Positions 38,242-57,785 of a stretch of 64,000 bases of DNA are shown here, piece by piece. The position numbers were made by a program, and so were the translations under genes. The stretch comes from Arthrobacter citreus (GTDB lineage Bacteria > Bacillota > Bacilli > Bacillales > Bacillaceae_G). A model generated the notes under the pieces. That model saw nothing but the letters and a program-made list of their open reading frames with translations, ran no database searches and had not been told where the DNA came from. The DNA is taken from contig CP053688.1 of assembly GCA_013200995.1 (NCBI GenBank), positions 1,550,001 to 1,614,000 on the forward strand. The letters run 5' to 3'. Within the stretch, counting starts at the first letter, position 1. Each line of letters starts with the position of its first letter.

Positions 38242-38338
38242 TTTAATTGCAGTTTCACCAGTTTTATTCATTTTAATTGCAGTTTCACTTTACTTAATCG
38301 CACCTTTCACAGTTTAATTTGCACGTTCAACTCAAACT
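38242..38338. repeat. Degenerate 21-bp tandem array, core TTTAATTGCAG
   Basis: Core units start at 38242 and 38272 (TTTAATTGCAG, both followed by TTTCAC), 38293 (CTTAATCGCAC) and 38314 (TTAATTTGCAC). Spacings are 30, 21 and 21 bp. The 8-10 bp between cores vary. The same core and period occur at 50711-50844. The remaining 37977-38241 sequence is AT-rich with possible decayed units but no clear phasing. Confidence 0.7.
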
Positions 38339-40847: not shown

Positions 40848-41062
40848 AATAAAAAGCCTCTTTTCCGAGACGAAAAGAGGCAATGTTAATTGGCTTTCGT
40901 CTCTTATCTACCAGAAAATTACTTTTCTGTTGGAATTAGCACCGTGCCTTACTGAGCAATTAAGCTCAGGCGTATTTATTACGCCCCATCTCACAATGGT
41001 ATTACAGTCGGTTGCTGGGCATCATCGGGCCAAATCCCTCCGCCTACTCGAAATAAGAGTTC
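40848..41062 (-). promoter_or_regulatory. SAM (S-box) riboswitch of mtnKA
   Basis: The minus strand shows the S-box core: GGCGGAGGGATTTGGCCC, GATGATGCCCAGCAACC and GGCACGGTGCTAATTCC, with P1 formed by CTCTTAT / ATAAGAG. GAGACGAAA in the 3' side of P1 can instead pair with TTTCGTCTC. That segment is the loop side of the terminator GCCTCTTTT / AAAAGAGGC (40848-40881), which ends in TTTTT. Bound SAM should therefore stop transcription before mtnK. Confidence 0.95.
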
Positions 41063-43236: not shown

Positions 43237-43295
43237 CATTTAGAATTGTTCATGAAATAATGCGATTATATCAAGAATTCAAAATTAAATATTAA

Positions 43296-43436
43296 CTTTA
43301 TTCAGAGTAGGTGGAGGGACCGAGCCCGATGAAACCCGGCAACCGGCTAGTTAGATAGCACGGTGCTAATTCTCGCAGCGTTTTGCTGACAGATAAGGTG
43401 TAGGTAAACCTCTCCTTAGTGAGAGGTTTTTTGTTT
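43296..43436 (+). promoter_or_regulatory. SAM (S-box) riboswitch of mtnWXBD
   Basis: S-box core GTGGAGGGACCGAGCCCGAT, AACCCGGCAACC and GCACGGTGCTAATTC, closed by TTATTC / GATAAGG. The terminator AAACCTCTC / GAGAGGTTT with TTTTTT is at 43405-43434. TAAGG of the P1 3' side can pair with CCTTA of the terminator loop as antiterminator. Bound SAM should block mtnW-X-B-D. Confidence 0.95.
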
Positions 43437-50710: not shown

Positions 50711-50844
50711 TTTAATTGCAGTTTTTTTAATTTTATTTGCAGATTCTCTATTTTCATTTACACTTCGGCCTTTATTTGCAGTCTCTGATTTCTTATTTGC
50801 ACATTGAACAGTTTAATTTGTACTTCGACTTTTATTCAACCACT
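50711..50844. repeat. Degenerate 21-bp tandem array, core TTTATTTGCAG
   Basis: Core units start at 50711 (TTTAATTGCAG), 50732 and 50771 (TTTATTTGCAG), 50753 (TTCATTTACAC), 50792 (CTTATTTGCAC), 50813 (TTAATTTGTAC) and weakly at 50834. Spacing is 21 bp except one step of 18. The cores are about 11 bp and the remainder of each unit varies. It matches the array at 38242-38338. Confidence 0.75.
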
Positions 50845-54952: not shown

Positions 54953-56227
54953 TTATTCAAAAGAAAACCCAACAGATTGACCCTTTTCCCAATTTTGTTT
55001 TTTCTGTTTACGTAAACTTGATCTCATTTCATCGCAAAGTCGAATAATATCAACCTTTTGTTCACAATCCCACTCGATAATGATTGAAATATATAACTCA
55101 TTCAATTGGGCATATGAAAAATCACTAGTTGAATCAATTAATAACTGCATTTCTTCATGATTTAAAATTCGAGATAGTTTCTTCTTCTGTAAATAACTAG
55201 AGCGCATTTCTTTTGTAGGTTGCTTAATTTCATAAGCTCGATCAAATCTACCAGAGCGATTCATTAATGCTGGATCGATTCTTTCAGGATAATTAGTTGT
55301 CCCAATTAAAAATAAACCTTCTTTTGAAGTTGCACCATCTATCGTATTTAGAAATACTGAACGTACTGATGCAGGCATACTATCAATATCCTCTATTACC
55401 AATACCATTGGCGTTAATTTTAATACTGAACTAAAGACTTCCTTAATCGTGTAACTTGATGTATATTCTGTTATTTGCCAATACGCAACTGGTGCGTTAA
55501 TACTACTTGCGATTGATTTTACTAAAGTCGTTTTTCCATTACCCGGATCTCCAAACAATAAAAATCCTCGTTTATAAGGGATTTCATAAGTTTTAAAGAA
55601 CTCTCGCCCTTCATTAAAGAAATGGTCAATTGATCTATAAATTTCTCTTTTTAACGGCTCTTCTAAAAACACATCTTCCCTACTAACCATTTTAGTGATA
55701 TTTTCAATTGAAGTTTCTACACCGTCATCTGTATCTGTATATACCGTTACATAATTTTTAATATAATCTCGTTTTCTTTTTAACACATATTGAAAAAAGG
55801 ATGAAAGACACGTATCATTTTTAGCAAAAATTAAGTCTCTATTATACTGATTATCGGCTTCAAAAATCATTGCTTTCGATAAAGCTACCCCATAATTCGG
55901 ATAATAATATAGCCCATTTTCAACTCGAGGTTTAATAATGAGTTCCATTACTTTTTCAGTGTGATTCGAAGAAATAGTTTTTGTTTCAAGCTCTTTATAA
56001 ATATGGCTGATTAATTGAACCTCTATTGATTCTTCTTTAAGATCCTCTTCAAGAATTTCCCAAATTTCATTTGTTGTTTCTTCATCAGAATACATATGGA
56101 ATTCTACTCCAAATTGTTCAAAAAGCTTATGTTGGATTGTTGAGATGATCTTCCCGTAATCGTAATAAAAAGGTAAAGTATTTCGTTCCATATCTTTCGA
56201 ATCAAATAAGACAGTTCTTTTTGTCAT
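54953..56227 (-). CDS. AAA+ ATPase (YjoB/BCS1-like)
   Basis: A 424-residue protein. A unique N-terminal domain (1-185) has no membrane segment. The AAA+ module follows: Walker A GDPGNGKTT (226-234), Walker B MVLVIEDID (274-282), sensor 1 GTTN (309-312) and the arginine-finger region NRSGRFDR (323-330), then a helical lid. The length and plan resemble B. subtilis YjoB (423 residues), an ATPase with chaperone-like properties under SigW control, and more loosely the BCS1 group. I cannot place it more exactly. It is a monocistronic gene next to a repeat array. The ATG follows AAGGAG. Confidence 0.8.
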   Translation of the reverse strand: MTKRTVLFDSKDMERNTLPFYYDYGKIISTIQHKLFEQFGVEFHMYSDEETTNEIWEILEEDLKEESIEVQLISHIYKELETKTISSNHTEKVMELIIKPRVENGLYYYPNYGVALSKAMIFEADNQYNRDLIFAKNDTCLSSFFQYVLKRKRDYIKNYVTVYTDTDDGVETSIENITKMVSREDVFLEEPLKREIYRSIDHFFNEGREFFKTYEIPYKRGFLLFGDPGNGKTTLVKSIASSINAPVAYWQITEYTSSYTIKEVFSSVLKLTPMVLVIEDIDSMPASVRSVFLNTIDGATSKEGLFLIGTTNYPERIDPALMNRSGRFDRAYEIKQPTKEMRSSYLQKKKLSRILNHEEMQLLIDSTSDFSYAQLNELYISIIIEWDCEQKVDIIRLCDEMRSSLRKQKKQNWEKGQSVGFSFE

Positions 56228-56347
56228 GCAATTCTCCTTTGTTTTCCAATCTTTCTTATCATTCTAAATCCTTCGTTTCTATATGTCTAGGGTTGAACGT
56301 ATTAGATAATACTTAATTTTGTATTAAATATAAGGGCTTGCCTACCT

Positions 56348-56473
56348 AAATACGAACAAATTTTGAACTTTATTCATAAAGTTGTGAACATTGCTCATGA
56401 AGTTAGTATTTTTGTGCATAAAGTACTGATTTTTGTTCATAAAAGACGGAATATCGTTCATAACGGGTTTGAG
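56348..56473. repeat. 21-bp tandem array, core GTTCATAAA
   Basis: Six consecutive 21-bp units starting at 56348, 56369, 56390, 56411, 56432 and 56453. In the last five, positions 4-12 of each unit vary around TGTTCATAA; the rest differs. The first unit instead reads TACGAACA...TGAAC. The lengths are exact to the base, with no indels. Confidence 0.85.
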
Positions 56474-56504
56474 GCAATTTCTGTGGGTTGAAGTTTATAT
56501 TTTA

Positions 56505-56609
56505 TATTACGAACATTAAGTGAACAATATTGATAAAGTTGTGAACTCCGTTGATATAATACTAGTTTTCGTTGATAAATAGGCTATTCTCGTTGATATA
56601 TTCCTTATT
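56505..56609. repeat. 21-bp tandem array, core CGTTGATA
   Basis: Five consecutive 21-bp units starting at 56505, 56526, 56547, 56568 and 56589. The first again reads TACGAACA...TGAAC, and the second shares AAAGTTGTGAAC with the second unit of the neighbouring array. The last four carry TTGATA where the first array has TTCATA. Confidence 0.85.
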
Positions 56610-56675
56610 AGATATAAATCGTATATTAGATAGTATAAAAACCGACTAATTATACCCACCGATTCACGAAAACAC

Positions 56676-56735: not shown

Positions 56736-57713
56736 TTAATCCCCAACTAAATTATGCGGTGGTATAATCTTTCCTTTTCTAGAAGGATTGGAATGATGTC
56801 GGTCTTCTTCTGTATTTATTTCCTCAGGTAGACGTTTTGGTGCAATCGGTACATTTTTCATTTCATAATTAATCACATCTGAAGAATGTAGTGTAACAAT
56901 CATGCTACCACCATATCTTTTTGCTCGAATTAAGATTGGCTGATTATATTTATTTTGGAAACGGAAGTCCGGCCCGTACCAGCTAACTGTCGCATCACGG
57001 CCTGCTGGTACATAGGGAACTCGCCTACTATGGGAATATCGTTCAATAATTTTCAAACCAGCTCGATCAACGGCATTAAAAAGCGTTGAAGACACTTGGC
57101 ATATTCCTCCTCCAACACCCTCAGACAATTCGCCTCTTACGATAATTGGAGCTCGTTTATATCCCTTTGCACCACTTCTTTCTCCTACAACCTTATTGAA
57201 GGAAAAAATTTCATTCGGAAAAACGACATAATTATCTATTGCTTTTGCAGCAAGTGAAATATTGTGTACACGGCTTGTATTATTAGAATTAAAATATGTT
57301 ACATATTGACCGATTTGTTGAATTTTAATATGGGCTAATAATTCGCTATCTACTTTCGGATAAATATCTAACTCTGGTACTTCAATTTGTGATGGACCTT
57401 TTCCATAAAAATATGTAGTAAATTTATCTTTAAATTCATTTCGATAAAGTTTGTAACCCACTTGACCAGGCACAATTCTACCTTCTTCATTAATAGATGC
57501 ATTGATTGGTTTACGATAAATTTCTTGATCAAGTTTTTCAATAAATTCATTAAACTTTTTATCATTTATCATTGGTGTCCCTGGAAGTGCCATTGTAAAA
57601 TCTGTCCGATTTACAACTGCAATTGGATGACCCTGTTGAATAACAGTTAAGCTGTCAGGAAGTTCAACAGATTGTGTTAATATGAAAAAACTAGCTAATA
57701 TTTTTTGCAACAT
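56736..57713 (-). CDS. VanW family protein
   Basis: A 325-residue protein with a hydrophobic N-terminus (LQKILASFFILTQSV, a weak signal or anchor) and a VanW domain in its second half. The domain contains SFNKVVGERSGAKGYKRAPIIVRGELSEGVGGGICQVSSTLFNAVDRAGLKIIERYSHSRRVPYVPAGRDATVSWYGPDFRFQN. VanW occurs in some vancomycin-resistance clusters but is widespread in Bacillus and Clostridium wall-associated proteins (YoaR-like). No van genes are nearby. The chosen ATG at 57713 is 9 nt after GGGAGGT; an earlier start would add 11 residues through the ribosome site. Confidence 0.88.
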   Translation of the reverse strand: MLQKILASFFILTQSVELPDSLTVIQQGHPIAVVNRTDFTMALPGTPMINDKKFNEFIEKLDQEIYRKPINASINEEGRIVPGQVGYKLYRNEFKDKFTTYFYGKGPSQIEVPELDIYPKVDSELLAHIKIQQIGQYVTYFNSNNTSRVHNISLAAKAIDNYVVFPNEIFSFNKVVGERSGAKGYKRAPIIVRGELSEGVGGGICQVSSTLFNAVDRAGLKIIERYSHSRRVPYVPAGRDATVSWYGPDFRFQNKYNQPILIRAKRYGGSMIVTLHSSDVINYEMKNVPIAPKRLPEEINTEEDRHHSNPSRKGKIIPPHNLVGD

Positions 57714-57785
57714 AGTTGGATTACCTCCCAACTTTAGTATGAACAAGATTTAATACTTTCATGTTTTTTCCTTTTTAAAGTTTTC

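Follow-up and report, generated by a model that had tools for sequence, protein, structure and literature searches.

The stretch of DNA considered here (the window, 64 kb, GC content 33%) lies on the main contig, 5.207 Mb long, of a genome of 5.47 Mb that comes in three contigs. Between a gene for an AAA-family ATPase and a gene for a VanW-like protein, anchors that stand 500 bp apart, it holds two blocks of short direct repeats. Written in rows of 21 letters, the blocks display six units at positions 56348-56473 and five at positions 56505-56609, which bears out the count, the coordinates and the period given in an initial annotation of this DNA. The arrays had been termed exact: this is true of the period, but the units are not identical and their spacers vary. 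TRF scores of the two blocks are 63 and 65. The unit that opens each block has, as had been seen, the form TACGAACA...TGAAC, and the next one contains AAAGTTGTGAAC. The cores then read, in order, ATTCATAA, GCTCATGA, GTGCATAA, GTTCATAA and again GTTCATAA in the first block (module 1), while TTGATA is present throughout in the second (module 2, with ATTGATAA, GTTGATAT, GTTGATAA and GTTGATAT). Positions 56346-56610 thus make a single copy of a composite intergenic element, comprising a head and units spaced by 21 bp (Table 1). Elsewhere in the window, two SAM riboswitches (RF00162) score above the curated threshold, at 40901-41059 (minus strand) and 43295-43399 (plus strand).

Table 1. Repeat modules, flanking genes and related arrays, in window coordinates
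Feature	Position	Strand	Basis or content
AAA-family ATPase gene	54953..56227	-	
Module 1 head (AAATACGAACA...TTGAACTTT)	56346..56371	+	gapless alignment to 31 other heads; head-model match at genome position 1606348
Module 1, class C	56372..56464	+	five cores: 56372, 56393, 56414, 56435, 56456
Module 2 head (TACGAACATTAAGTGAACAAT)	56503..56528	+	head alignment and head-model match
Module 2, class G	56529..56600	+	four cores: 56529, 56550, 56571, 56592
VanW-like protein gene	56736..57746	-	
Third class (TGCAAATAA on minus strand)	38247..38324	-	period as in the focal element, separate from it
Third class, second window copy	50716..50823	-	

Searching the genome for the core at a spacing of 21 bp shows that such arrays recur along the chromosome and are not a local feature. 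GTTCATAA forms 18 pairs when any gap of 2-32 is allowed; 17 of them are spaced by exactly 21 bp and the last one spans a degenerate unit, with no pair at all for the reversed-pattern control. GTTGATA makes 253 pairs (3 in the control) and GTKCATAA 50 (none in the control). The heads are equally recurrent. Thirty-two of them form a gapless alignment of 77 columns, and a sequence-only model made from it has 121 matches in the genome, the 32 source sequences matching by construction (up to 150 candidates were scored per genome). Positions are taken from the 98 matches listed among these 121. All 98 are on the main contig, without significant strand polarity (56 of 98, p = 0.19). The head consensus is AAATRCGAACAnnAtrTGAACtwT; it is followed by a first unit, rTTsATAAAGyTGTGAACTTC, then by the 21 bp units, each of which associates a constant core with a freer spacer, two helical turns away from the next. 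A detection blind to core position 4, requiring at least four units per array, found 87 arrays and 518 units in the pieces fetched. Steps between units (n = 431) measure 21 bp in 405 cases, 20 in 23 and 22 in 3. The number of units per array peaks at five (42 of 87) and reaches 22, and the units of some arrays are identical (from genome position 2035249 onward, for example). At the level of sequence, this anatomy of a head and phased units is certain.

Core position 4 splits the arrays into two kinds, GTTCATAA ('C') and GTTGATA ('G'). It is G in 426 of the 518 units, C in 76 and another base in 16. The base that separates the two focal blocks, remarked upon in the initial annotation as common to all later units of a block, is a property of whole arrays across the genome: 72 of the 87 keep one base throughout, against a mean of 29.4 and a maximum of 39 when bases are shuffled, the 15 impure arrays being real exceptions. 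A walk along the units behind 96 of the 98 listed heads, those that could be placed, gave 64 arrays all G, 16 all C, 15 mixed and one neither; in mixed arrays the odd bases sit mostly at the far end. The classes do not differ by one coordinated base change, as had been proposed. First units left out, position 3 is G in 20 of 64 C units and in 1 of 354 G units, while position 8 is A in 61 of 64 C units and T in 234, A in 117, of 354 G units. These further differences argue for two recognition words rather than a single substitution. In G units, the strongest harmonic of AT content has two cycles per 21 bp (p = 0.003, spacer permutation), as in DNA bent round something; for C units this harmonic is not significant (p = 0.085).

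The arrangement of the classes bears on the origin of the shared base, for which concerted evolution or matching to a binding partner had been put forward. Among the 97 steps between neighbouring listed heads, 11 are shorter than 600 bp (1.1 expected), and 10 of these 11 join heads of the same orientation. All six close pairs of mixed class run C then G. Where a C block lacking a listed head of its own lies beside a G head, the order is C then G in four cases and G then C in one (near 4277 kb of the genome). By hand count from the listings, 11 places where the classes adjoin were thus found, 10 of them with C first; the focal locus itself is a C-then-G composite. No exchange of class appears in 11 orthologous arrays of a congener, G007, followed unit by unit. 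When 14 arrays are aligned more loosely, misaligned double arrays among them, scattered changes at position 4 affect 16 of 57 aligned units (GC 5, GA 4, CG 3, GT 2, CT 1, CA 1). C and G are two standing classes; local concerted evolution is not supported, and a partner is the better option.

The window also carries arrays of a third class. Those annotated at 38.2 and 50.7 kb do exist, with TTGCA-type units and a 21 bp period. The first has units at 38247, 38277, 38298 and 38319 (steps 30, 21 and 21), the second at 50716, 50737, 50758, 50776, 50797 and 50818 (steps 21, 21, 18, 21 and 21). Counted by hand over the genome, 65 pairs of TGCAAATAA are spaced by 21 bp in 54 cases, 18 in seven, 19 in two and 20 in two. 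There are 31 clusters of this class, of which 29 are on the leading strand (hand count, using GC skew and the position of dnaA); after several of them comes a near-palindrome like ATACCTATACCGGTTAGGGTAT.

Congeners differ at the focal site. G007 keeps block 1 unit for unit, and block 2 there has decayed. Seven others (G002, G004, G005, G006, G009, G011 and G012) retain both neighbouring genes with no array in between; in the remaining four only the VanW side was found, so that they were not counted. The anchors are 170-210 bp apart in the seven array-free genomes, 439 bp in G007 and 500 bp here; the intergenic ends of the seven align too poorly to place the boundary of the element. Matches to the head model fall from 121 in our genome to 54 in G007, 17 in G009, nine in G012, eight in G005, seven each in G002, G004, G006 and G011, two in G010 and none in G001, G003 and G008. 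G007 apart, the 23 congener loci gather at few places: 11 (in seven genomes) at the place of L079, about 3.2097 Mb, five (in five genomes) at that of L084, about 4.2771 Mb, and one at L269, while six matched no piece of our genome compared. Seven congeners keep short forms at L079, L084 or both. At the shared places the elements are short, with one to three units after a head-like one, and form two modules at the L079 place. Absence of the focal copy from seven congeners, together with short forms at two loci, points to an expansion in one lineage. The simplest history would be that an old short composite, present at one or two loci, gained units and spread to further places in the lineage of G000 and G007. 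Since 11 of 12 congeners have few copies or none, the element must be dispensable.

Once in place, arrays tend to stay. Of the listed heads, 94 have at most four mismatches; for 14 of these the sampled G007 contigs contain the flanks on both sides, and array sequence is present in every case, although three are mere remnants with one or two near-exact cores. Positions have therefore been stable since the two genomes split. Within these arrays, cores change more slowly than spacers. Unit by unit, the 11 orthologous arrays differ at 41 of 387 core and 236 of 516 spacer positions, and an alignment of five loci gives 37 of 342 in cores, 151 of 456 in spacers and 411 of 1320 outside; both samples took loci where G007 keeps the head, and the walk along the 11 arrays stops at decayed units. 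Without this choice, the 14 arrays show 144 of 619, 332 of 822 and 283 of 756, respectively, a core effect that is weaker although still marked (core against spacer, p = 6e-12, positions not being independent). Misalignment of double arrays and decay of some arrays each account for part of this weakening. With the remnants in G007, it suggests that the constraint on cores is only moderate.

Gene context was read with a simple custom ORF finder. Heads occupy 77 gaps: 32 convergent, 39 tandem and six divergent. The 151 other gaps of at least 60 bp in the same pieces comprise 24, 81 and 46. The convergent excess (p = 4e-5) and the divergent deficit (p = 9e-5) are both clear. In tandem gaps, 23 heads run along the genes and 23 against, and one head only lies within a frame of at least 150 codons. 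This lack of orientation preference, and the avoidance of divergent gaps, are unlike an RNA element or a promoter site. BOX elements too have a convergent bias, which the authors, in the account consulted, read as tolerance of insertion (PMC3049150); on that reading the bias alone is no argument for function. On a larger scale, no listed head (98 of the 121 matches) falls in the 339 kb around dnaA (genome C1:3627888-3966441), and only 11 of the 98 are in the first 1.56 Mb, which includes the likely terminus.

Beyond the genus, 397 genomes of the order were searched for three GTTGATA spaced by 19-22 bp, and 28 of them, ours included, from 15 families, contain such a triple; the reversed control is found in three genomes (G301 twice, G383 and G394). 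In a sample of 398 genomes of the phylum (ours and six from the order among them) the sole other match is a simple repeat of 7 bp, and GTTGATA arrays are restricted to the order within the samples searched. Spacing varies with the genome: exactly 20 bp in G301 (17 of 17 steps), exactly 21 in G274 (12 of 12), 20 in 22 of 24 steps of G378, and a mixture of 20 and 21 in G281 (9/9), G258 (7/5) and G028 (6/7). The same core at 20, 21 or both points to the helical turn, not to codons. Heads of these other genomes differ from ours. At 20 loci of low-copy genomes, ten arrays are in gaps and nine overlap only frames below 110 codons; the array of G099, within a LysM protein of 458 codons, is likely coding. 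Two single-linkage protein clusters span five and three of these 20 loci, but they consist of ABC-transporter and LysM proteins, common families. The few further clusters of two loci reflect mostly the shared synteny of L205 and L217. In G107, a sister of the GTTGATA-using G026, the 200 kb viewed contain arrays with other cores, TTATCCGAAGT, GTTAGACA and TATACGGTA, at 20-21 bp (L150:103-339, L150:1523-1840 and L148:10452-10539). As to viruses, 31 contigs match the GTTGATA triple (L188 in steps of 20 bp) and two the C-type pattern. A phage origin was discarded: by eye, the listed matches, L188 aside, look like coding heptads of 21 bp or simple short-period repeats, unlike the element. One of our arrays compared with plasmid and phage records gave no match, and searches of open-licence PMC papers turned up nothing recognisable as arrays of this kind in Bacillales.

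What could such an element be? The best explanation, to which we grant about even chances, is a dispersed BOX-like element built of phased modules that a candidate protein would bind. A fixed head is followed by usually five units, in places as two modules, C then G. Each unit presents one core of 7-9 bp on the same face of DNA, two helical turns from the next, and a sequence-specific protein would bind these cores side by side, bending or coating the stretch. The two classes might then correspond to two specificities of one such protein, or of two paralogues. The role would be architectural (local nucleoid structure, or marking of a convergent or tandem gene boundary) rather than the control of promoters. 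Recognition at the level of DNA is suggested by the slow cores, the absence of orientation preference in tandem gaps, the avoidance of divergent gaps, and searches that found neither RNA structure nor inverted ends. That the element has a function for its host appears likely.

The main rival, which we hold possible though less probable, is a functionless dispersed repeat: a purely parasitic, non-autonomous element of the BOX or MITE sort, with cores that reflect source copies or binding of a transposition protein. Indeed, copies are dispersed, intergenic and modular. About 100 of them share a near-identical head, they arose in a burst in a single lineage, the focal one is missing from seven congeners with intact flanks, and their convergent bias, which also fits tolerated insertions, is that of BOX (PMC3049150). 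According to the same description BOX elements vary in module number and result from a past burst, but they have terminal inverted repeats, target duplications and a predicted RNA fold (PMC3049150). Searches here for inverted ends and for a fold came out negative, and the modules consist of short cores in helical phase. With the head as query, an inverted copy downstream of 44 arrays (from 41 pieces picked for having arrays) is no better than in shuffles or upstream. Furthermore, array sequence is present in G007 at 14 of 14 testable places, three as remnants, and cores slower than spacers in place would not be expected of parked parasites. Slippage homogenising a functionless local array, which the initial annotation would have preferred had there been no other arrays and no conservation in relatives, is very improbable. 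It would explain identical units and arrays of up to 22 units, yet copies are genome-wide with orthologues in G007, head and core are common to about 100 places, cores agree while spacers differ, and the same word and phase recur in 15 families; genome-wide recurrence refutes it as a full account. A regulatory or structured RNA transcribed from the arrays deserves just as little credit. Folding of the plus strand is a little better than in shuffles (z -1.23), but the other strand has z -0.78, the consensus energy is -0.59 kcal/mol with no covarying pair, and orientation to transcription is indifferent. No Rfam family reaches its curated score in the element, where two matches to eukaryotic families are far below threshold. 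Degenerate coding repeats, 21 bp being seven codons, are scarcely credible. On the GTTSATA strand, 40 of 67 arrays leave one frame open, but it has as many stops as column shuffles (39 against 35.5). On the other strand, one frame shows a deficit of stops (54, against 75.5 in column shuffles), but steps of 20 and 22 bp occur here, and related arrays elsewhere have 20 bp or mixed steps.

Returning to a protein that would read phased cores, known systems offer several comparisons. In plasmid iterons and ParR-type centromeres, a cooperative protein reads direct repeats that are some 20-22 bp long and helically phased; these are confined to a single replication or partition site, together with the corresponding gene. 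The phase is alike here, but about 100 copies are spread over the chromosome, with no recognisable gene in cis: recurring neighbours at the 20 low-copy loci are only generic ABC-transporter and LysM proteins, those of our own arrays being partly annotated. DnaA had to be considered, since its box is similar to the cores in reverse complement, and TTATCCAC occurs in congener elements. That the arrays are clusters of DnaA-like boxes titrating the replication initiator is improbable, if somewhat less so than slippage or RNA. On the other strand the cores read TTATCAACA and TTATGAACA, one base off TTATCCACA, and GTGCATAA reads TTATGCAC; cores are one or two bases from TTATNCACA, a consensus matched by GTGCATAA units of C arrays if T precedes, and ancestral forms include TTATCCAC. 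Element regions at the 23 congener loci, which are not independent, hold 13 TTATCCAC in 13.8 kb against none in 56.7 kb of flank. G arrays, however, shun the consensus box: just one of 518 units has the GG at positions 3-4 that would turn it into this box. DnaA boxes leave one position free, whereas this base is fixed within arrays. Our dnaA region uses ordinary TTATCCACA boxes, hence the specificity of DnaA has not shifted, and the stretch around the gene, 3.628-3.966 Mb, is free of listed heads. DnaA as the reader is disfavoured. Clusters of DnaA boxes away from dnaA are known in Bacillus subtilis; away from our dnaA (3763763-3765137), ordinary TTATNCACA clusters lie at C1:3736500-3736730 and C1:4002120-4002720.

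Before its family was searched for, RemA would have been the best-fitting of the known mechanisms. In the model put forward for it, a ring of this protein wraps some 100-160 bp of DNA whose direct repeats are periodic, rich in AT and poorly conserved (PMC8481266). The likeness lies in the periodic AT-rich repeats; sites described in that work are 10 bp repeats at promoters (PMC8481266), while ours have a period of 21 bp. Eight genomes of this genus were searched for the RemA-like family PF04025 without any match, whereas nine others of the order have two matches each, so that RemA is hardly the reader here. Apparent loss of this family of a conserved biofilm regulator in the eight genomes is an observation in its own right. 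A further parallel is found in the TAACTGA repeats of Beggiatoaceae, a fixed heptamer in many intergenic sets of direct repeats, patchily distributed and with no known reader (PMC4679880). The word is another one, however, and these repeats are mostly just upstream of start codons and taken as translational signals; a 21 bp phase is not among the features reported in the text consulted (PMC4679880).

What does this mean for the order at large? A bolder proposal, which we regard as unlikely and tentative, would be that the order possesses an as yet undescribed architectural DNA-binding system reading a 7-base core every two helical turns, its specificity set by the three bases before ATAA (TTG; TTC or TGC; with CAA as a third class). 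In the lineage of the present genome, about a hundred of its docking arrays would have accumulated and would together form a scaffold along the whole chromosome, with at least two and perhaps three kinds addressed independently. One word, one phase, two nearly pure classes and about 100 places are a bait for a candidate DNA-binding protein. If nothing binds, this would be an unusual dispersed repeat, devoid of BOX-type inverted ends and RNA fold, the positional stability of which needs explaining. If a protein does bind, it would be an architectural factor with sites that can be counted, deleted and moved, and with a change of specificity recorded in sister arrays.
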